From contig JAAZXB010000001.1 of assembly GCA_014240375.1 (NCBI GenBank), positions 116,110 to 180,109 on the forward strand: DNA of 64,000 bases, in the 5' to 3' direction. This stretch comes from Planctomycetota bacterium. Its GTDB lineage: Bacteria; Planctomycetota; UBA8108; UBA1146. The notes beneath the pieces were generated by a model. That model worked only from the letters and a program-made list of their open reading frames with translations. It ran no database searches and was not told the DNA's origin. Made by a program: the position numbers and the translations under genes. Below are positions 53,054 to 63,914 of the stretch, piece after piece (position 1 is the stretch's first letter; each line of letters starts with the position of its first letter).

Positions 53054-55945
53054 TCAGGGGCAGCTTCCGCCATCGAGGCACTCCTCTAATGGATCGGGGG
53101 TGGAATCCCATCCGCAGGAAGGGAAGGGGGCAGCTGGCGGAGTGCCTCCTCCAAACAGATAGATGACCAGTGCCACCGTATCAGAGATATTCACCTCGCC
53201 GGTGTCATGGACATCCGCTGCGTCAATACACTGAAGAGTGCTTCCATTGAACAGGTATCCAAGAATCGCCACCGCATCGGAAATATCTGTGGCCCCATCT
53301 CCGTTGGAATCTCCCCGTCGAAAGGATGGGCCAGTCTGACAGATCCGCGTGATCACACGAAAATCATCGATGCCTGCTTCCACGATCGACCCCGCATCCA
53401 GATCCGATGCGACGAATCGCATTCGCACGGTGTTGGTCAGTGAAATCAACTGTGACGGATCGAAGGAGTGCAAGATCCAACCACCGTTAGTGTCTGGACC
53501 ATTCTGTGGTCCCACTTGCTCAACAGTGACCCAGTTCACCAGATCGTTTGTAATTTCAATCTGCCAGGTATCGGTGTAGGGCGCTGCTCCGGTACCGTTG
53601 ACATACCAGCGCCAGTACTCGATGAGGACGACATCTGCTGAATAAGGCTCGAGGTCCATCACCGAGGAAAAGAGTGTGGTGGCGCCACCATCGACATCAT
53701 TTTCACCCTGACCGCCTCCCGCACTCCCCTGGCCGGTCACCCAGCACTGCGAGCCGATCTCACTGTGGTCGGCACCGGGAGCCGCCACCGTTCCTATCGG
53801 TGTCACTCGGGTCCAGGCTCCGGTGGTCGCGCCATCCGATGGGGCTCCCACCGTCCAGCCGAGATCCTGCTCCATTGGATTCTCAATGAACGCTTCCTGA
53901 AGTAGATAAACAGGAACCGAGAAGGGATCAGCCGCTCCGGAGTCCGGTGAGGCGTGAGTTCCTCCAGTGAGGTCCCCGAAACTGAAGTAGTACTCGACGG
54001 GATCCCCGCACGAATAGCCTGGAATCGTCGCCATGAAACCTCCTCCAACCTCCTGCACGACAGAAAATGTGCTGAAAGCACCCGGTCCCTGTCGCACATG
54101 GAGCAACCCTGAATCGGGATCGGGAGTGGCAGCCGCCGCCGTGACCTCCAGTCGAATCTGACGCTCTTCCTGTGGCAACAGAGACTCTGGCAACCCCAGG
54201 GGGTAGGAGATCAAGATATCTGCCACTGATGGACAGTTGATCGACTGTTGTGCGAAAGCATCGCAGATCTCTGAGTAATTGGGAGTTCCGTTATCCAGCG
54301 AAGAATCGTCATCATCGAGGGTGAGTAGTTCGATGGCGGTCTGTGGATGGGCACTCGAAGGTCCAGAGCCACCGGTGGTGATCAGACTCCAATCCACAAA
54401 CAACTGTTGCACCTGGGAGAGCCCCTCGGCGGATCCGTACACCGCTCCAAAATTCTCCCGCACTCTCCAGAATGCCGCCCCCAGGATCTGGCCACAGTTG
54501 TGGACAGAAGTGGACTGGCAAGGGTACTGGATATTCGCCGCCAGAGGATTTCTGACCTGTGTTCCTGGCCCTTGAAAGTCATGTCCGATGATGGGGTCGT
54601 CGTAGATCAACATACTCATCAGATCGCCGTACCCTTCGCCAAAACCACCCTGAGAAAGACCCAGACGGTTGACCACGAAGTGCCCATACTCGTGAGAGAT
54701 CACACTTGCGTAGGCGGTGTTCACACAGCCTCCGCCCGCCTGGTAGAAGTTGATGCTCTGCTCCCCCGGGCTGAAAAAAGCATTACAGGTATCGAGGATG
54801 TTGACATTGCAGAGGATCGAGATATCGATGCCGGGATTACCCGCGACCGTCCGATCTCTGAAAAAGTCGTGGGTGATATTGGTGTAGTGGAATGCATTGA
54901 CCTCGGATTGCACCAGCGCATCGGCCACAGGGTTCAATGAAACCGTGGCAGGTCCCGGTGGAATCGCAGGAGTGCTGACCAGTAGATTCGCAGCGACATT
55001 ATTTTCTACCCTGACCCAGTCTCCGATCAGTTGCGAAACCAGGCTGACCGGGGCCGTACCTCCATGGGGACAGGTGAAGGATCCATCCAGCGCAGAGGTG
55101 GTCGATCCGCTGCCAGAAATCGATACGGGAACGGCTCCAACCGCCTGCTCCACTGCCGGATTCGTGGCACTGTCGGGGCGATTATTCTGATTGACCCGAC
55201 CCCGGACTTCTCCAACCACATCTTCATGAACCAGATCGTTGCGCACGCCAAGAACTTCGCCGGTTTCCGGATCGATGAGAATGCTCCAGTCCTCGATTCC
55301 ATGTGAACTGGGGGTGGTCGCCTTGACCCGGTAAAGGAGACGGGATTCACTGCGCAAAGATGCGCTGGCCTGAATCAGCAGCTCTCCCTCGGACCAGCGC
55401 TCGATTTCGATTCCAGGAAGTTCGCGGGTCGCGATTCGAGTCGCCTGTTGCGGGGTCAACAAGACCGGCGCGTAGCCTGACAGAGGTTGTTGAGCGAGGT
55501 GGCCCGCTGCATACACCACTGCAGGGTCTCCTGTTTGCAGATCTGGTCGAACCAAGATTCGCAATGCGGAAGACTCCACGGGCACGCCATCGATGACTTG
55601 CCGGTAGGCGTACACCGAGGCCTCTCGGGTCGGTAAATCGGTCTGGTAGATCATCTCAAGGTCTTCCTTGAAGACTCCAAAGAGCGCTACATGTTGCTCA
55701 AGAAAATTCAGAACCGCGTCGTCATCACTGGTTCCCCGGCTGATGACGCCACCGTAGATATGAGTTCTTCCCAGACCATCGCGATCCACCCGGATCGAGG
55801 GATCACCGGTGATCAAGGCTTCGATGGAAACCTCGATCTCCTCCTCAAATGGACGTTCTGTCCACTCCTGGGCCAGTGAGATATTGGTGGCCACCCACAG
55901 CAGGCACGTCATCCCGAATACCACCTGGCCTGGCAATCGCTGCAT
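53054..55945 (-). CDS. Secreted gluzincin-type metallopeptidase with FTP region and C-terminal dockerin-like module
   Basis: 963 aa from ATG 55945, with GAGGAG 6 nt upstream; the track ATG 7 codons earlier is less well placed. Signal peptide VVFGMTCLLWVATNISLAQ. Residues about 30-230 look like an FTP/PepSY propeptide. The peptidase domain has ASVISHEYGHFVVNRLG (HExxH) and, 20 residues on, GFGEGYGD, probably the third zinc ligand, as in M36 fungalysin-like enzymes. Later beta-sandwich domains include VGPQNGPDTNGGW. The C-terminal dockerin-like pair is GDSNGDGATDISDAVAILGY and EVNISDTVALVIYLF. Exported, probably surface-bound protease; paralogue downstream at 56160. Confidence 0.88.
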   Translation of the reverse strand: MQRLPGQVVFGMTCLLWVATNISLAQEWTERPFEEEIEVSIEALITGDPSIRVDRDGLGRTHIYGGVISRGTSDDDAVLNFLEQHVALFGVFKEDLEMIYQTDLPTREASVYAYRQVIDGVPVESSALRILVRPDLQTGDPAVVYAAGHLAQQPLSGYAPVLLTPQQATRIATRELPGIEIERWSEGELLIQASASLRSESRLLYRVKATTPSSHGIEDWSILIDPETGEVLGVRNDLVHEDVVGEVRGRVNQNNRPDSATNPAVEQAVGAVPVSISGSGSTTSALDGSFTCPHGGTAPVSLVSQLIGDWVRVENNVAANLLVSTPAIPPGPATVSLNPVADALVQSEVNAFHYTNITHDFFRDRTVAGNPGIDISILCNVNILDTCNAFFSPGEQSINFYQAGGGCVNTAYASVISHEYGHFVVNRLGLSQGGFGEGYGDLMSMLIYDDPIIGHDFQGPGTQVRNPLAANIQYPCQSTSVHNCGQILGAAFWRVRENFGAVYGSAEGLSQVQQLFVDWSLITTGGSGPSSAHPQTAIELLTLDDDDSSLDNGTPNYSEICDAFAQQSINCPSVADILISYPLGLPESLLPQEERQIRLEVTAAAATPDPDSGLLHVRQGPGAFSTFSVVQEVGGGFMATIPGYSCGDPVEYYFSFGDLTGGTHASPDSGAADPFSVPVYLLQEAFIENPMEQDLGWTVGAPSDGATTGAWTRVTPIGTVAAPGADHSEIGSQCWVTGQGSAGGGQGENDVDGGATTLFSSVMDLEPYSADVVLIEYWRWYVNGTGAAPYTDTWQIEITNDLVNWVTVEQVGPQNGPDTNGGWILHSFDPSQLISLTNTVRMRFVASDLDAGSIVEAGIDDFRVITRICQTGPSFRRGDSNGDGATDISDAVAILGYLFNGSTLQCIDAADVHDTGEVNISDTVALVIYLFGGGTPPAAPFPSCGWDSTPDPLEECLDGGSCP

Positions 55946-56159
55946 GGAAATCTCCTCGAAGAGCATCTGAATGAAGTTTCATCGATTCAGAAGCGGGGAC
56001 TCACTGTTCTGGATGCTGGACTCACCAGGGTCAGAACCGAGGTCATTCTAATCCAAGCCACCACACTCAGCGAGTGGCTGGGACCGAAGAGGCTGAGGGT
56101 CTGGAGGAGGGAACAGACACCCCTCCTGGGCTGTCGATCGGAAAGGCCCCACTCTCGAC

Positions 56160-58985
56160 TCAGGGGCAGATCAGACCATTCAGGCAACCGATGGAATCGG
56201 ACGTGACGTCGGCACCGCAGTCGAGGGAAGCACCAGGAAATCCAAGAAAGAGCTCATTGAGAATCTGAATCACGTCACTCAGATTTACCTGCCCTCCGTC
56301 ATCCACATCGCAGGCGTCCTCACACTGAAACGAGCCGGCGTTGCCAAACAGGAGTTCGAGCATCTGAATCGCGTCGCTCAAATCCCTGTTTCCATCGATA
56401 TTGCAATCACCCCGGATGAAGTCGTTCTCGACTGGCGGGGGTGGAGTTGTACTGCAGGAGAGATTATGAATCTCGATCAGATCCACGCCCGCCTCGACCA
56501 CATTGCCGAATCCGGTATCGCCGACGTGGAACCGCAACATCACTGTCCCGGATGGAGAGGCGCCTTCCTGGATCCAGAACCCATTCTGATACCACCCTCC
56601 CAGTGCTTCAGGATTACCCCTACCCACCTCCTCGACCTCCACCCAGGTGAGTCCCTCATCCAGGCTCTTGTAGACGAACAGGGAGTCATCGGGAGTGGTG
56701 ATGGATGTCGCATTGGAAAACCACCGCCAGTAGGAAACTCGGTGAAGGCCCGTATCGCTGAGTGGGTATGCCACGCTGGTCAGGGTGGTATCCCCACCAT
56801 CGACATCATGCGCTCCCTGAGTTTGTCCAACGCCTCCAAGGCCCGTAACGTAACAGGTCAAATCCCCACTGGAGGAAGGAACTCCACCGCTAGCCTGCGC
56901 TGCAGAAGCATACGGGTCTCCCCACTCCCATCTTCCTGCGGTCGCGGTATCCGAAGCCTCGGCAGTACTCCAACCTGGATCGGTGCTGAATTGCTCCTCC
57001 ACAACGGTGATCAGATCCGTGGCCACAGTCGTGGAGTAGTAGACTCCCAGATCAGCATCGGGTGGAAGGGTGGTGGTTTGGCTGGCATCATCCTGAATGC
57101 TGACAAACCACTCGATGGAATCGAGGCAGTTCAGCGGAGGAAAGGTTCCCTCATAGACCCCCGGAGATGTTTCGGTGAGCAAGAAGGCCTGGAATGGAGC
57201 CCCCTCGAATCGATAGATGACCATCGAGCCATTTGGAAGTGGAGTCGCAAGGATCTCCTCAACCAGCACCCGAATCGGAGTCGAAGCCGCAGGGGGCACC
57301 GTCGCTCCTGGGCCCAGATCCAACCCCAGGAGGAGAGTGAGTAGTTCTGGACAGACGACGCCGTGAGCCGCAGCTGCCGCACAGATCTCGTCAAATTGGG
57401 GGGTGCCATTCTCCACATTGGTATCATCATCGTTGACCGTGAGGACCTCGATCAGCATGTCATAGTGAAAAGGTTGAGATGCGCTAGCACCGATCGTCAG
57501 GCTACTCCAGTCGACAAACAGCTCCCTGATGAGGGCAGTTCCTGCCGCTTCCCCCAGTTGCGTGACCATCGTCTGCCGCAGGTCAAACCAGAATCCAGCC
57601 AACGCCTGGCCGCAGTAATGAATCCCTGAAGAACAGGGAATCTGTACATTTGCAGCGACGACGTCTCGGACAAAGGTCCCCGGGCCGGAAAAATCCCTGC
57701 CGATGATCCCCTCACCCAGATAGACCACCGCCAGTGAATCACCATAGCCTTCCCCGAATGACTGCTGTGCCAGCCCAAGGGAATTGACGATGTGATGGCC
57801 GAACTCGTGAAGTACGACCGAAGAATAAGCACTATCTACGCATCCGGCTCCGGATTGGAGGAAGCGTAGCATCGTCAATGCGGGATCATAATAAGCGTTG
57901 CAGCTCCCTGCCATTCCAGTGGTCGCTGTCACCGGGGTCACCATCGCTGGGAATCCCCCGGGAGCATCGACATAGAATCGGAACGCCTCTTCCATGTAAT
58001 GGAAGGCGTTGCCCTGTGCCGTCTCGGCAATGACTTGCCCACTGTTGATGACCAGATCCACTCCTGCTGGATCTGCAGTGGCAGAGGCGGTCGCATCGGC
58101 AGAACTGTCACTGGAGATTGAACCCCACTGGCCCTGTAGGCCGGCCAGCACCGTGAAATTGGAGCCCGTGGCATTCGACAGCAAGAAGGATCCGTCAGCA
58201 GCGGTGAAGGTGCTAACACCTCCGCCAGAGACCTGCGCTCCTGACAGAGGAAAGCTGATGGTGGTTCCCGGTGATTGCGGAGCGGTACCTTCAGTTCTGA
58301 AGACGCTGGCGGTTCCTGGTACATCGATCTGACAGATCTGTTCCTCGACTGCGAGGACTTGACCCGACTGAGCATCGACATCGACACGAAGATTACTGTG
58401 ATGCCCCGGTATGGTAGAAACTCCCGAGTTGACCCAGCAGAGGGTCGGTTCTCCATCTTTACCCGGTGCCAGTTGCAGCGTCGGCTGCAACCAGTCACGA
58501 GAAGGGTGCCCCAACCTGGCGACTTGCAACGCTGAGTCTTTGTTGAGAACTGGTGCTGGAATCTCCTCAGGAGTCGAGTAGCGAAATGCTCGATAGGTAA
58601 CGGTCCAGAGTCCCGTGAGCCGATCGCGTATCGCGAGGCTCCGTCCCAACGCCCCTCGAACTGAATACCCGTTCATCTGCTGAGTCCAGCCGGCAAACAC
58701 CTGGTCCTCAGATTTTTGCCGAATCCAGGACAGGTTCATGGTGGAGGAGGTGTCGGGTCCCAGTGTTCTCTCGAGATCCATCGTCAGAGCAGCATGCACA
58801 TCCGTGGAGGCGGGGCCCAGACGGGTACCGTCCCTCAATTCTGCCCCCAGCATCGATTCGGGGTTGAGAAGTACCGCCGACAACACGATCCACGTCATTG
58901 TGAAGTTAAAGGTCCCCCACACATGGATGGATCGATGGGATCCAGATGGACTAAATCCTCGACTGAGAATCAATTTCAGAGACAT
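56160..58985 (-). CDS. Secreted gluzincin-type metallopeptidase, paralogue, with C-terminal dockerin-like module
   Basis: About 941 aa. The start is uncertain: ATG 58985 used, GTG 58991 in the track, neither with a clear Shine-Dalgarno. An internal ATG near 58898 would give a shorter signal peptide. The signal region includes MTWIVLSAVLLNPE. The peptidase domain carries SSVVLHEFGHHIVNSLG and SFGEGYGDSLAVVY, matching the neighbour's HEYGH...GEGYGD. It continues with FVRDVVAANVQIPC-type similarity. The C-terminal dockerin-like pair is GDCNIDGNRDLSDAIQMLEL and GGQVNLSDVIQILNELF, ending GLICP. Tandem paralogy suggests duplication followed by divergence in the N-terminal propeptide. Confidence 0.86.
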   Translation of the reverse strand: MSLKLILSRGFSPSGSHRSIHVWGTFNFTMTWIVLSAVLLNPESMLGAELRDGTRLGPASTDVHAALTMDLERTLGPDTSSTMNLSWIRQKSEDQVFAGWTQQMNGYSVRGALGRSLAIRDRLTGLWTVTYRAFRYSTPEEIPAPVLNKDSALQVARLGHPSRDWLQPTLQLAPGKDGEPTLCWVNSGVSTIPGHHSNLRVDVDAQSGQVLAVEEQICQIDVPGTASVFRTEGTAPQSPGTTISFPLSGAQVSGGGVSTFTAADGSFLLSNATGSNFTVLAGLQGQWGSISSDSSADATASATADPAGVDLVINSGQVIAETAQGNAFHYMEEAFRFYVDAPGGFPAMVTPVTATTGMAGSCNAYYDPALTMLRFLQSGAGCVDSAYSSVVLHEFGHHIVNSLGLAQQSFGEGYGDSLAVVYLGEGIIGRDFSGPGTFVRDVVAANVQIPCSSGIHYCGQALAGFWFDLRQTMVTQLGEAAGTALIRELFVDWSSLTIGASASQPFHYDMLIEVLTVNDDDTNVENGTPQFDEICAAAAAHGVVCPELLTLLLGLDLGPGATVPPAASTPIRVLVEEILATPLPNGSMVIYRFEGAPFQAFLLTETSPGVYEGTFPPLNCLDSIEWFVSIQDDASQTTTLPPDADLGVYYSTTVATDLITVVEEQFSTDPGWSTAEASDTATAGRWEWGDPYASAAQASGGVPSSSGDLTCYVTGLGGVGQTQGAHDVDGGDTTLTSVAYPLSDTGLHRVSYWRWFSNATSITTPDDSLFVYKSLDEGLTWVEVEEVGRGNPEALGGWYQNGFWIQEGASPSGTVMLRFHVGDTGFGNVVEAGVDLIEIHNLSCSTTPPPPVENDFIRGDCNIDGNRDLSDAIQMLELLFGNAGSFQCEDACDVDDGGQVNLSDVIQILNELFLGFPGASLDCGADVTSDSIGCLNGLICP

Positions 58986-59236
58986 ATCCACTGAAGTAAT
59001 CCAGACTAACTAAACAGATAGAGCCTTACCGATTGGTAATGCAAGCAAGGTCCTATAACGAACATGGCCGTTCGCTGACCGATAACAATAAAATCTAGCG
59101 TCCTGCAATCGCAAAGCCCAAAATAGCCGGGCTTCCTTATCTATATGCAGAACCACTCGACTCCTAAATCTAACCTCCTTGTAATGAGGAGAGTAAGGGA
59201 CACCCCCGAACATGTCAAACTATTCATTACGTTATT
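58986..59236. other. AT-rich intergenic region (about 250 bp)
   Basis: Noticeably more AT-rich than its surroundings. It contains a short inverted repeat (aagccc / gggctt, near 59115-59135) and probably the promoter of the downstream minus-strand peptidase. No gene or RNA recognised. Confidence 0.5.
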
Positions 59237-59632
59237 TTATTCCACTATTTTCGGCAGCACAACTCCCTTGTTAATCGACACCATCGCCCCCCGATCCACC
59301 CCTAACCAGCCCCAGGAGAGCAATAGCCCCGATCCACCCAGCGGTGTCACCCACCGAAACAGGGAAGGGCCTCCTCCTGCAAGGAGCAGCAGGGAACCAC
59401 AAAAAAGCACAGTCGCCAATAGCATCAATCGTCCCTGTCCGACTCTTCCGATGGCACCACAGATCCAGATTCCAATGGCGTGCCAGAACAGGAATCTGCA
59501 CCCGATCTCCCACTGTCCCAGCGCAGCAGGATCCGCAGTCTCCTGCAGACGATGAGTTCCCCAAGCACTACACCCAACAGCAATCGCCGCCAGAAAATAT
59601 GCAACTCTGATCAATCCAGATGAACTCAGCAC
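59237..59632 (-). CDS. DUF423-family small membrane protein
   Basis: About 131 aa from the GTG at 59632, which has an AGGGGGG just upstream and overlaps the methyltransferase stop; the track ATG lies 12 codons earlier. Four hydrophobic helices: VAYFLAAIAVGCSAWGTHRL (the typical DUF423 GA(F/W)G.H pattern), FLFWHAIGIWICGAIGR, LMLLATVLFCGSLLLLAGG and a last one near LLLSWGWLG. The family is conserved, of unknown function. It is the last gene of the SRPBCC-methyltransferase operon. Confidence 0.82.
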   Translation of the reverse strand: MLSSSGLIRVAYFLAAIAVGCSAWGTHRLQETADPAALGQWEIGCRFLFWHAIGIWICGAIGRVGQGRLMLLATVLFCGSLLLLAGGGPSLFRWVTPLGGSGLLLSWGWLGVDRGAMVSINKGVVLPKIVE

Positions 59633-60798
59633 AGCCCCCCCTGCTCTCGTTCGATGGCAAAGAGCCATTCATGCACTTCATCTTCTGTTCGCCCTTCGGC
59701 TGGCCGAAACTGCCTGCTGGCTCCTCCTCGGTCACTCCTGAATCTCCGATATGGAATCTCGTGCAACATCTGATCCCTGTCACCTGCGGGTGACCAGGAC
59801 TGGAGCATCTGAAGAATTTCCGTTCTCGAGAGGATCCCTTCTTCACTGTAAGAAAGAACGATTCCCCTCGCCTGTGCTCGTTGAATGATGCTTTGCATCG
59901 CATCTCTACAGTCCGTTCCTCGACGGCTACATAGTGGAGAAGACACATCTTTCCACGGTAACAATCCGGTTTTTCCATACAGTTGGAGTTCAAGGGAATC
60001 GTCAGATTCCTCCATCGGCAACCGTGAAATCACTTCTGGAAGATGGTAGTTGGCTCCATATTGTCGGTGATTATAAGGCGGATCGAGATACAGAAGATCG
60101 CACTCCACCTGCTCGATCCACTCCCCGGCCTCACAACGATTGGCCTGTCCGATCGGCCCCTCGACGGTGGCAGGAATTCGAAGTTTCAGATCATTCAGTG
60201 AGTTCTGTTGCCAACTCTTGAGATAGGCACCGTAGGTTCCAGAGATGTTGGCCACTCGATCTGCGGCATCGATGACACTGACAATCAACAGCCACATCTC
60301 ATTCTCCTGCAAACGATCATCGATTCGCCACTGTCGGATCTGATCGATGATGGCATCCAGACGAGCGGCATTGACCGGAGTCAGATATCCCCTCTCCGCC
60401 GTCCCTGCTGGAGAAAACTGCCGTACCAGAATTCCCTCTCTGGCAGGCAATTCCTGCTCCAGATACCGAATCAATTTCAGAAAGGGCATCCATGCATCGG
60501 GATCAGCGGGACTCGCATCGTGGACCCTCTTGGCTTCCATCGGTTCCATCGATTCCCAATGATCCTGAACTCCACTGAATGACGGCGGGCCCGGGCATTC
60601 CAGATAGACCTTCTGGAACGCCAAAGAACAGTGCATCAGATCGGTGGAAATCACACGGTAGCCACGAGCCCGGAAAAAACGGCCGACAGACCCGCTACCT
60701 GCAAACAGATCGCAGACGGTGCCACCTCGAAAACCGGCCCGCTTGGCTGCGAGCAGGATCTCATCGAGCAATGGAGTCTTGTTTCCAAGCCAGCGCAA
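59626..60798 (-). CDS. D12-class DNA adenine methyltransferase (first of a pair)
   Basis: 390 aa, TTG start with GAGGAG upstream, beginning 1 bp after the TAG of the second methyltransferase. The N-terminus LRWLGNKTPLLDEIL matches the motif X region (YxGxK). SAM motif I is CDLFAGSGSVGRFF and catalytic motif IV is LLYLDPPYNHRQYG. A 150-residue insertion between them probably recognises the target. The family methylates N6 of adenine in DNA. The adjacent paralogous enzyme could methylate the other strand of an asymmetric site. No endonuclease-like gene is near. Confidence 0.88.
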   Translation of the reverse strand: MRWLGNKTPLLDEILLAAKRAGFRGGTVCDLFAGSGSVGRFFRARGYRVISTDLMHCSLAFQKVYLECPGPPSFSGVQDHWESMEPMEAKRVHDASPADPDAWMPFLKLIRYLEQELPAREGILVRQFSPAGTAERGYLTPVNAARLDAIIDQIRQWRIDDRLQENEMWLLIVSVIDAADRVANISGTYGAYLKSWQQNSLNDLKLRIPATVEGPIGQANRCEAGEWIEQVECDLLYLDPPYNHRQYGANYHLPEVISRLPMEESDDSLELQLYGKTGLLPWKDVSSPLCSRRGTDCRDAMQSIIQRAQARGIVLSYSEEGILSRTEILQMLQSWSPAGDRDQMLHEIPYRRFRSDRGGASRQFRPAEGRTEDEVHEWLFAIEREQGGLC

Positions 60799-60799
60799 T

Positions 60800-62200
60800 C
60801 TACTCCTCGCAAAGCAGGAGTAATTCTCGAACCGATCGGTTGGAATCCCCCTGCCCCGAGTGCATCAATAGTTTCTCGCGGATCTCAACCTGCCCGAAGT
60901 ACTCCAGCAGTAACTCTCGAAACTTCCGTGCCGGGTTCTGTTCCCCCTGCTTGGCCCAGCGACCGGTCAGAAGTCCAGTATCGGTGGAGTACGAGATCAG
61001 CAGCCTAGAACTCCGATCCTTGCACGCTTGAGCCACTCCTCGAAACGCCTCCTCAACCCGAACGCTGCTGCAGAAATCGGAGCGGTACCTGATCTCCTGC
61101 TTTGGATATCGACCCTTGGTCAGAGAACCTCCCCGGCTCTCCAGTTCTGGATAGTCGTAGGCAACCAGGGTTTCCAGAACATGGTAAAAGCGCGAGTAGT
61201 TGTCTGCGGTATAGGGCGGATCCAGATAGACCAGATCCACTTCCTCGTCATCGAGTGGACTTCCTGGAGCGAGCAATCGCTGAACATCGCTACAGAAGAC
61301 CCGGTTCCCTGCGAGCCTTGGATGGTGGGACCACTCTCTCAGGATCGCTTCGAGCGCCAGTTCGAATTGCTGATCGATGTCGATTATCCGGCGCTTGGCC
61401 ACCGCTACAAGTTCAGGATCTCGGGCGATCGATCGAGGCTGAGCAAAGTGACTGGTCCCAGACGTACTTACCGAAACCGCATGCAGCAGAGCTGCGAGGT
61501 ATATTGCCCGCTTCCTCTCCCGAAAAGGATCCGAGGAGGGGATCGCCTCGATGGCATGGCGGATCGAATCGATCCGAATCGACTGCCTCAGTCCAAAGTA
61601 GACATGAGACCAGTACGCCGTGCAGAGCATCGCCGGAGAGCCCCCTGAGGATTTCCGTCTCTGGTCGAGCAAGTGTTCCAGACGACTCGCAAGAGGCTGA
61701 TGAACTCCTCCATCATCTTCATCGGATGAGATTCCGCTGGCGTCATGGGGAATCGGAGCCTGGGCCACAAAGGAGCGATAACGCTCCATGGCACCGCTAT
61801 CGCTCGCATTTCCCGAACCCTCTTTCAGCACCTGGTCGAGCAATGAATCTTCCAGGTCCAGGGCTCTCGGCGCCAGGTTGGTGAGCCACTGAGCATTCTC
61901 CTCTGTCGCACTACCCAGATCCTGGAGATGGTCCAACTGGTCGAGGTAGTTTCGCCACGACTCATCCCCCTCGAGGTGAGCGCTCGCCACGATGGAGGAG
62001 AAGTGTTGAACATCGTTGCTCAGGATCCGATAGGTCGGGGCGAACCAGCGAGATACGGCAGCGGTTCCAGCACACGCGTCGAGAAGAGTTTGACCTGGAT
62101 CCAACAGATCACGTACTGCACCGTCGAGGAATTCTTCGCACAGTCTCGTCTTGGCTCCCATGTACCAAAGGGTTCGTAATTCTGCCAGATCTCTGCTCAT
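60800..62200 (-). CDS. D12-class DNA adenine methyltransferase (second of a pair)
   Basis: 466 aa. Motif X LWYMGAKTRLCEEFL, a variant motif I LLDACAGTAAVSRWF (Phe of FAGSG replaced by Cys/Ala) and motif IV LVYLDPPYTADNYSRF. It is longer than its neighbour because of a bigger helical insertion (about residues 75-300), which includes an acidic low-complexity stretch SSDEDDGG. The variant motif I still keeps the Ala-Gly backbone, so activity is plausible. Overlaps the upstream SRPBCC gene by 4 bp. The target sequence cannot be read from the protein by eye. Confidence 0.87.
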   Translation of the reverse strand: MSRDLAELRTLWYMGAKTRLCEEFLDGAVRDLLDPGQTLLDACAGTAAVSRWFAPTYRILSNDVQHFSSIVASAHLEGDESWRNYLDQLDHLQDLGSATEENAQWLTNLAPRALDLEDSLLDQVLKEGSGNASDSGAMERYRSFVAQAPIPHDASGISSDEDDGGVHQPLASRLEHLLDQRRKSSGGSPAMLCTAYWSHVYFGLRQSIRIDSIRHAIEAIPSSDPFRERKRAIYLAALLHAVSVSTSGTSHFAQPRSIARDPELVAVAKRRIIDIDQQFELALEAILREWSHHPRLAGNRVFCSDVQRLLAPGSPLDDEEVDLVYLDPPYTADNYSRFYHVLETLVAYDYPELESRGGSLTKGRYPKQEIRYRSDFCSSVRVEEAFRGVAQACKDRSSRLLISYSTDTGLLTGRWAKQGEQNPARKFRELLLEYFGQVEIREKLLMHSGQGDSNRSVRELLLLCEE

Positions 62201-62763
62201 CCGTGACTACCCACCCGTTCGAGAATTTCGCGAAGACTGGCGAGCCAATCCCTCTGCAGATCGGCACAGCGCACAGCACGCCGTCCGATGATGAGAGAAG
62301 CCCAACCCTTCCATGATGACACGAATTCGACCAGAGAGCCGCCGCCGTCCGCCATGATCATCAAGCGCACCTGACTTCTGAAAGGCCCTCTCCCAGCATC
62401 CCAGGAGATGCCCCTCAGCGGGAGTGCGTTCGAGTCCTGAGAACCTGCAATGGAGATAACTTCGTCTTGCATGATCACACCGCCAGAGAGGGGTGCCCCC
62501 CCCCAGGGTTGCCAGATCAGTTCAAATCGTGATCCCGGTTTCCACGCCTCTCCCTGGATCCACCGAGCAGATTCCAGGCCCTGGCACCACCGAGGCCATT
62601 CCTCCAGCTTGGAAATCGACTCCCAAGTCTCCTTGGGCTCGATGTTGAACCAGGTGGTTTCACGAACCGAGAGTATACGCAAGGTTTCCGGAACCCCTCC
62701 CTGGGCCAGGTCGGACCCACTCCATGCTCGAAGAGCCCGCAGTGAGGCCCCAGCGTCCGGCAT
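62197..62763 (-). CDS. SRPBCC-fold protein
   Basis: 188 aa from ATG 62763 with AGGAG 8 nt upstream; the track start is 9 codons earlier. Residues about 30-185 look like an SRPBCC (START-like) domain: FNIEPKETWESISKLEEWPR, then WKPGSRFELIWQPWG and the C-terminal helix LIIGRRAVRCADLQRDWLAS. The family binds hydrophobic ligands. The first 30 residues are a polar extension. It overlaps the methyltransferase gene by 4 bp and would be the first gene of that operon. Whether it relates to DNA modification is unknown. Confidence 0.75.
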   Translation of the reverse strand: MPDAGASLRALRAWSGSDLAQGGVPETLRILSVRETTWFNIEPKETWESISKLEEWPRWCQGLESARWIQGEAWKPGSRFELIWQPWGGAPLSGGVIMQDEVISIAGSQDSNALPLRGISWDAGRGPFRSQVRLMIMADGGGSLVEFVSSWKGWASLIIGRRAVRCADLQRDWLASLREILERVGSHG

Positions 62764-62943
62764 TCTGTGTCTCCTGCTGGATGGGGTCAAGTCCAGCGAC
62801 TCAGATCAGATGACAAGTTGCATTTACCCTGTAATAATATGAATAGACTCAGGAATTGATGGGCAATCCCTCACGATCCCCATCGAGGCCTGATCTCTGC
62901 AGAGCAAATTACTTTGGATCCATTTGAAGGGCGTATTTGTTTC

Positions 62944-63411
62944 ATGGCTCGACCTCTTCTGCCATTGGTGCAGGCCATCATCCTTTGCGACAGAGTTTAC
63001 AAGGATGACGAGACACGCAAATGCGTGCTGGCTGGCACTTTCAACCAGATCCCCTTGGCGGAGTTCCCTTGTGAATATCAGCCCGCATCACTGTACCTCA
63101 ATCTGAGTGATTTCTCCGGTCACCACACCGTTTCATTCCGTTTCAAACGTCTCGCAGATGACTCCATTCTCGAAGAGAGTCCCGATTTCCCCCTCGAACA
63201 TTCAGATCGCAGAGAACACCACGAGTGCATCTTTGAACTGCCACCGATGGAATTCCCAGAACCGGGACGCTACACCTGGGAAGTGGTCTTCAACGGAACC
63301 GATGTGATCGGTACCGCCGACGTGGAAGCGGTATTGATGGAACTCAGCAGTCATGAAGAAGAGTTGAATGAGGGCCCGCAAAATGAGGGCCCGCAAGAGG
63401 AACAGAACTGA
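62944..63411 (+). CDS. Conserved small protein (possible DUF6941 member)
   Basis: 155 aa from ATG 62944 (MARPLLPLVQAIILCDRVYK); the track TTG is 10 codons earlier. The compact beta-rich sequence has LVQAIILCDRVY, VLAGTFNQIPLAEFP, then an Ig-like end GRYTWEVVFNGTDVIGTA. I recall similar small cytoplasmic proteins as DUF6941 in planctomycetes, but I cannot confirm this. The acidic C-terminal tail contains a duplicated NEGPQ from an in-frame 15-bp repeat. Divergent from the methyltransferase operon. Function unknown. Confidence 0.75.
   Translation: MARPLLPLVQAIILCDRVYKDDETRKCVLAGTFNQIPLAEFPCEYQPASLYLNLSDFSGHHTVSFRFKRLADDSILEESPDFPLEHSDRREHHECIFELPPMEFPEPGRYTWEVVFNGTDVIGTADVEAVLMELSSHEEELNEGPQNEGPQEEQN
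63367..63396. repeat. 15-bp tandem duplication at the 3' end of the small conserved gene
   Basis: aatgagggcccgcaa occurs twice without mismatch and encodes NEGPQNEGPQ. It keeps frame. Confidence 0.94.
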
Positions 63412-63504: not shown

Positions 63505-63608
63505 GTCACACCGTCACACCGTCACACCGTCACACTGTCACACCGTCACACCGTCACACCGTCACTCCGTCACTCCGTCGCTCCGTCGCTCCGTCACTCC
63601 GTCGCTCC
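63505..63608. repeat. 8-bp satellite array, 13 units
   Basis: gtcacacc, changing gradually to gtcactcc and gtcgctcc, is repeated with an exact 8-bp period. The gradient of variants shows stepwise local copying. The right end enters the last codons of the minus-strand HEAT-like gene and supplies its stop. The units are adjacent with no spacers, so this is not CRISPR. Confidence 0.95.
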
Positions 63609-63914
63609 ATCACCATCCGCTTCCCCCTTGGATGCTGGTTCCACTCCAATAATCTTGTTGAAGTGTCCACGTAGGATCTGAATCTTCCCTGGTTTGAGAT
63701 TCACCAGTTGTTCCTCGAATAACTCACGAAGTCGATGACGAGCCAGCAAAGCTGTAACCCTCGCAGCAACTCTCGGACTCGGATCCCTCAGCGTGGGAGC
63801 CATGACTCTGGCCTCATCCACTCCCGGACCGAGAGCGAGGACCTCCTTCAACAGCGCCTTTCGCTCCCGCCCCCGCGATTCGAGATATTTCTCCAACAAA
63901 TCTTCGGGGATCAT
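63594..63914 (-). CDS. Small HEAT-like helical protein
   Basis: 106 aa from ATG 63914 with GGAG 9 nt upstream; the track start is 17 codons earlier inside the preceding gene. Helical sequence LLEKYLESRGRERKALLKEV then APTLRDPSPRVAARVTALLA, the latter much like one HEAT repeat. The Gly/Asp/Ala tail GEADGDGATE ends in a stop lying within the 8-bp satellite, so the C-terminus was probably created or altered by the repeat. The ATG overlaps the stop of the partial upstream gene by 4 bp, so it belongs to an operon entering from the right. Function unknown. Confidence 0.7.
   Translation of the reverse strand: MIPEDLLEKYLESRGRERKALLKEVLALGPGVDEARVMAPTLRDPSPRVAARVTALLARHRLRELFEEQLVNLKPGKIQILRGHFNKIIGVEPASKGEADGDGATE

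Follow-up and report, generated by a model that had tools for sequence, protein, structure and literature searches.

Orphan methyltransferases (MTases) as such are common, and the core ones among them mark genomes in replication control, repair and gene regulation; those that are well studied are single enzymes with palindromic sites. Conserved orphans of type II typically leave part of their sites in the cell unmethylated. Two MTases are found together in a number of restriction-modification (RM) systems. LlaJI has two MTases for the asymmetric sequence GACGC/GCGTC, plus McrB-like and PD-(D/E)XK subunits (PMC1459862), LlaI has been described as an McrBC relative requiring two MTases (PMC3874153) and McrB-like GTPases often have predicted MTases associated with them (PMC11090510). 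In the FokI-type pair M1/M2.Csp12AI (GGATG/CATCC), the two enzymes share an asymmetric site, each marking one of its strands, and a FokI-like restriction endonuclease (REase) is encoded 1.2 Mb away (PMC4752239).

The Planctomycetota pair that is the subject of this study, MTases A and B, has points in common with several of these systems. Like the LlaI/LlaJI/BsuMI-type systems (type II, with an McrBC-like GTPase and a nuclease), it consists of two MTases together, in a B-A order homologous to the M genes, but the Planctomycetota loci are without an McrB-like GTPase and without a LlaJI/McrC-like nuclease. The MTases of LlaJI itself are, moreover, 5mC enzymes, whereas A and B are of the D12 m6A type. 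Like conserved orphans of type II (Dam, CcrM and the MTase families described by Blow et al. 2016; PMC4752239), A and B have no REase detected in the loci read or among the families sought, occur in more than 50% of the species of their class and have a record that fits vertical inheritance and purifying selection; they differ in being two dissimilar enzymes rather than one, with their closest homologous pairs in McrBC-like RM operons. With M1/M2.Csp12AI they share the arrangement of an adjacent m6A-type pair with no REase adjoining (PMC4752239), but where Csp12AI has its distant FokI-like REase, a search for the FokI cleavage domain gave no match here, its control being silent as well. The orphan MTases of Halobacteria (CTAG, GATC) are likewise class-wide amid patchy RM systems, but they are single enzymes with palindromic motifs (PMC6471742). 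Conserved orphan MTases being already known, the notable feature of the present case is the class-wide retention of two enzymes at split loci. We consider it likely that A and B are an orphan m6A pair derived from the modification half of a LlaI/LlaJI-type (McrBC-like) RM operon and kept vertically as a core mark.

The methyltransferase pair in the window

The window, that is the whole stretch of 64,000 nucleotides that was analysed (G000:C32:116110-180109), comes from a 3.39 Mb MAG in 120 contigs with about 95% completeness. The locus reads, on the minus strand, SRPBCC-like gene, MTase B, MTase A and DUF423 gene, with a divergent gene upstream:

59237-59668, minus strand: DUF423 small membrane protein (Pfam E=3.2e-14)
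59626-60798, minus strand: MTase A, D12-class N6-adenine DNA methyltransferase, 390 aa, TTG start
60800-62200, minus strand: MTase B, D12-class N6-adenine DNA methyltransferase, 466 aa, ATG start
62197-62763, minus strand: SRPBCC-like gene (Polyketide_cyc2 E=1.3e-4, under the Pfam cut-off)
62914-63411, plus strand, divergent: DUF6941 gene, which by its synteny marks the upstream side of the locus within the family and order

Exactly one base (60799) separates the stop of B from the start of A, the SRPBCC-like gene (62763-62197) overlaps the start of B by 4 bp and the DUF423 ORF overlaps the end of A by 43 bp. The start of the SRPBCC-like gene is uncertain, its nearest relatives having 175 aa. 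The start residue of A is identical in its orthologues, some of which use an ATG or GTG codon in place of the TTG of the window, and in some loci elsewhere the A gene overlaps B by a few bases. Since orthologues of both A and B can be aligned over their full length across the class, the two are not a chance pair of ORFs.

Both proteins match MethyltransfD12 (PF02086) over the Pfam cut-off (A, E=2.3e-23; B, E=5.2e-12) as well as several type II MTase models of PADLOC. The initial annotation, which had reported two different D12-class N6-adenine MTases 1 bp apart, thus agrees with the coordinates, the spacing and the PF02086 matches. MTase A has the motif I DLFAGSG and the motif IV DPPYNHRQY (DPPYNHRQYG in the window protein). 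MTase B has the motif IV DPPY, the conserved blocks DPPYT.DNYSRFYHVLE and STSGTSHFAQPR, and a further sequence feature, DPPYTADNYSRF. The catalytic motifs are intact, motif I and DPPY being conserved across the alignments. AlphaFold models of the two MTases are confident (mean pLDDT 88.9 for B and 89.4 for A), and a fold search found the predicted fold of A to be closest to E. coli Dam and that of B to E. coli and T4 Dam. Sequence searches with A and B returned no significant solved relative, so that it was the fold search alone that placed both near Dam, and neither is recognised by the curated NCBIfam Dam model (TIGR00571), for which A scores 14 bits against a cut-off of 114.85 and B gives no match. 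A and B are probably active, chromosomal DNA m6A methyltransferases.

No motif that could be ascribed to A or B emerged from the k-mer statistics, and no published methylome for the group was found in the literature searched. AGCT is strongly depleted in the window (76 seen vs 198 expected); the other f1 loci have a ratio of 0.60, those of f4-f6 one of 1.25. GATC is 3.6 times commoner in the window than base composition predicts, with no excess under a higher-order model.

Homologous pairs in restriction-modification operons

Pairs of homologues in the same B-A order, with about 25-31% identity, are found outside the Planctomycetota in Bacillota, Bacteroidota, Myxococcota and Burkholderiales, namely in Fundicoccus, Peptoniphilus, Anaerostipes, a Bacteroidetes MAG, a Myxococcales MAG, Janthinobacterium, Herbaspirillum, Cupriavidus and a Burkholderiales MAG. 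Next after these pairs come genes for McrB-like AAA proteins and/or for an RE_LlaJI nuclease or a protein with a weak PD-(D/E)XK match. When the loci were searched by tblastn with McrB-like or R1-type restriction genes, matches were obtained in 9/9 non-planctomycete B-A loci, the Anaerostipes locus having only the first gene of the restriction set, followed by unrelated genes. The same genes gave no match in the Planctomycetota loci examined, where the sequence available downstream reaches 3.5 kb or more for 17 of the 22 adjacent pairs.

A sister group to these (B homologues L142, L148, L153, L154, L163 and relatives) has as its neighbour, in the loci examined, an N6_N4-type MTase and/or a nuclease of the PLD type, the latter with a weak NgoFVII match.

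Distribution, gene order and inheritance in the class

Orthologues of B were found in 26/29 genomes of the class, one copy each (16/16 among the good-quality genomes), and those of A also in 26/29; among the other Planctomycetota sampled, the counts are 13/363 for B and 19/363 for A. Both f3 genomes are without A and without B, from which it follows that not every member of the class strictly needs the pair. G023 is without A only and G024 without B only, both being fragmented genomes that are 80-83% complete, and in G016 the B gene is split over two contigs. The A gene of G007 (G007:C25:16018-17208) has one in-frame TGA, which is either a sequencing error or a sign of a pseudogene. The initial annotation had offered an orphan epigenetic system as one option, and this has gained support, each of the two genes being intact, present once per genome, spread through the class and subject to strong purifying selection. 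That nearly every sampled member of the class keeps both genes suggests that the DNA mark has a housekeeping function and is not what is left of a defence system, and such class-wide conservation fits the orphan rather than the RM pattern of Blow et al., in which 57% of orphan MTases but 9% of RM MTases are conserved even at the level of the genus (PMC4752239).

In f1 and f2, which represent the window's family and order, A adjoins B, with B first (in G016 they lie at the ends of two contigs). In f1 the SRPBCC, DUF423 and DUF6941 genes flank the pair, and the conserved neighbourhood also comprises a DUF4139 protein pair, a DUF480 gene, a SpoU methylase and two large putative metalloproteases. 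In f4-f6, B and A are found at two different loci, each of them syntenic, B with biotin synthesis genes and prephenate dehydrogenase as neighbours and A with a chaperonin, a sigma-54 activator and a Mur ligase. The conserved unit is therefore formed by the MTases, not by the four-gene order, and since almost every f4-f6 genome retains both A and B despite their separate loci, their co-retention is independent of operon linkage. These statements on synteny rest on clusters confirmed by Pfam or tblastn because the ORF caller favours long antisense ORFs in GC-rich genomes (e.g. cluster 10).

In comparisons of close relatives, A has a dN/dS of about 0.06 and B one of 0.11-0.17, compared with 0.07 for the neighbouring SpoU rRNA methylase and about 0.24-0.47 for the SRPBCC and DUF423 genes, values that are to be read with the caveat that the dS values for G002 are mostly saturated. 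The A and B trees have 15 of 20 splits in common, and the distances between sequences are correlated (0.89, with 0/2000 permutations as high). In the B tree, the Planctomycetota sequences are set apart from the rest by a branch whose SH-aLRT support is 100%, and the groups within match the genome families. This agreement between trees, together with the low dN/dS, fits vertical inheritance under purifying selection. The B tree being unrooted, loss of restriction in the class lineage is the likely direction rather than a proven one.

Taken as an orphan pair of RM origin, A and B would descend from the M1 and M2 genes of a LlaI/LlaJI-type McrBC-like operon whose GTPase and nuclease genes have since gone. 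They would probably read a single asymmetric sequence, with each enzyme responsible for an adenine on one of the strands and the site thereby marked in full, and almost the whole class would have kept this vertically as a core genome mark, comparable to those of Dam and CcrM, and not for restriction. Most likely, one enzyme methylates adenines on the first strand of a single asymmetric site and the other enzyme those on the complementary strand, a proposal that is based on the presence of two MTases in the homologous systems and on the co-retention of the genes after their separation. The comparison with type IIS systems drawn in the initial annotation would accordingly be a reasonable hypothesis.

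It is conceivable instead that A and B are independent orphan MTases with unrelated motifs that are neighbours in some families by chance. Their separate loci in f4-f6 would be in accord with this scenario, as would the presence of A without B in eight genomes outside the class, the solitary A-like MTases on phages and plasmids and a third A-like orphan in the window genome. It is nevertheless unlikely, because A is present in 36/39 genomes with B, including 11/13 outside the class (Fisher p = 2e-14 for co-occurrence outside the class, kinship ignored), and because the two genes were ancestrally adjacent in two-MTase RM operons.

Phages were also considered as a source of the pair, or as carriers of copies of it, and this was rejected since the matches on viral contigs were confined to A-like MTases of distant relationship and two short stretches resembling B. 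The third D12 MTase of the window genome (G000:C43:191480-192544; L100:7481-8548) has 355 aa and 39% identity to A over part of its length. No nuclease was found among its tested neighbours, it is kept in 12 other genomes of the window's family with 62-97% identity and it is probably another core orphan.

The search for an endonuclease and the putative role of the pair

According to the initial annotation, the operon held only an SRPBCC and a DUF423 protein besides the MTases, with no endonuclease beside them. This has been borne out (albeit with an SRPBCC match below cut-off), since Pfam and PADLOC detected no nuclease family in the four genes and the tested neighbours except a housekeeping RNase HII; a restriction domain in the SRPBCC-like or a neighbouring gene, which would have spoken against an orphan pair, was among the features sought, and the idea of a nuclease hidden in a neighbour gene was thus rejected. 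Searches of whole genomes covered named REase families only. RE_LlaJI was found in 0/30 relatives, with a control that matched in B. subtilis, and PF10117 (McrC) in 2/30, the window genome being negative. Searches with the Cupriavidus McrB and for the FokI cleavage domain gave no match, nor was there a control that matched in either.

The two PF10117 genes (G008:C21 and G010:C45; L203 and L202) belong to the window's family and lie on contigs other than that of the MTase pair.

These results bear on the possibility that A and B belong to a complete type II or IIS RM system whose endonuclease is encoded elsewhere or is of an unrecognised family. The precedent of M1/M2.Csp12AI (PMC4752239) keeps this scenario alive, the more so as the window genome is a MAG that is about 95% complete and unknown REases are hard to recognise. 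It is decidedly unlikely, however, in view of the absence of RE_LlaJI in all 30 relatives with a working control and the scarcity of PF10117, and because RM systems are patchy and mobile while the A-B pair is vertical and class-wide.

A decaying RM remnant, kept only because restriction was lost recently, is very unlikely. It would be consistent with restriction genes that are absent here and present beside the distant homologues, and with the in-frame stop in A of G007, but the genes are full-length ORFs throughout the class and beyond, with a dN/dS of 0.06-0.17, and their flanks are without trace of restriction genes. The suggestion of an RM remnant in the initial annotation therefore holds as ancestry, given the homologous pairs in McrBC-like RM operons, and not as decay. 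Scarcely credible is a defence or stress module of four genes in which the SRPBCC and DUF423 proteins take part, for although the genes are overlapping, co-directional and conserved in order within the family, a search of other genomes found the four-gene order nowhere but in the window's family and order. The MTases are found more widely and among housekeeping genes, without SRPBCC and DUF423 neighbours outside the window's order, and these two genes evolve faster and match no PADLOC model; the operon is thus not the functional unit, SRPBCC and DUF423 were rejected as functional partners and the undescribed defence module that had been envisaged was not upheld.

An orphan m6A pair of RM origin could have wider implications. 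We infer, by analogy, that its mark may have a regulatory, replication or repair role. The more ambitious reading, in which A and B form a domesticated two-enzyme system that marks both strands as a class-wide core epigenetic signal and has been selected even after the separation of its genes, is possible, although we place it slightly below the balance of probability. If it is true that an asymmetric site is marked on both strands, strand identity would be encoded in the mark itself, unlike in the palindromic Dam and CcrM systems, and a pair that is vertically kept throughout a class and homologous to the MTases of McrBC-like operons would represent a clear domestication of a two-strand modification module. 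The prediction, which concerns a largely uncultured, marine branch of Planctomycetota, is that a single asymmetric m6A motif marked on both strands will be found across the class and will be absent from f3.

Two features of the surroundings of the pair may be added. The window has, at 53054-58991, two tandem, diverged genes whose large, secreted products carry HEYGH/HEFGH motifs like those of zinc proteases and end in dockerin-like C-termini; in most of the family, related genes, again in tandem, are found downstream of the MTases. On the other side, a short tandem-repeat array of the type caccgtca/ctccgtcg (63508-63610) is located between the DUF6941 gene and the next gene.
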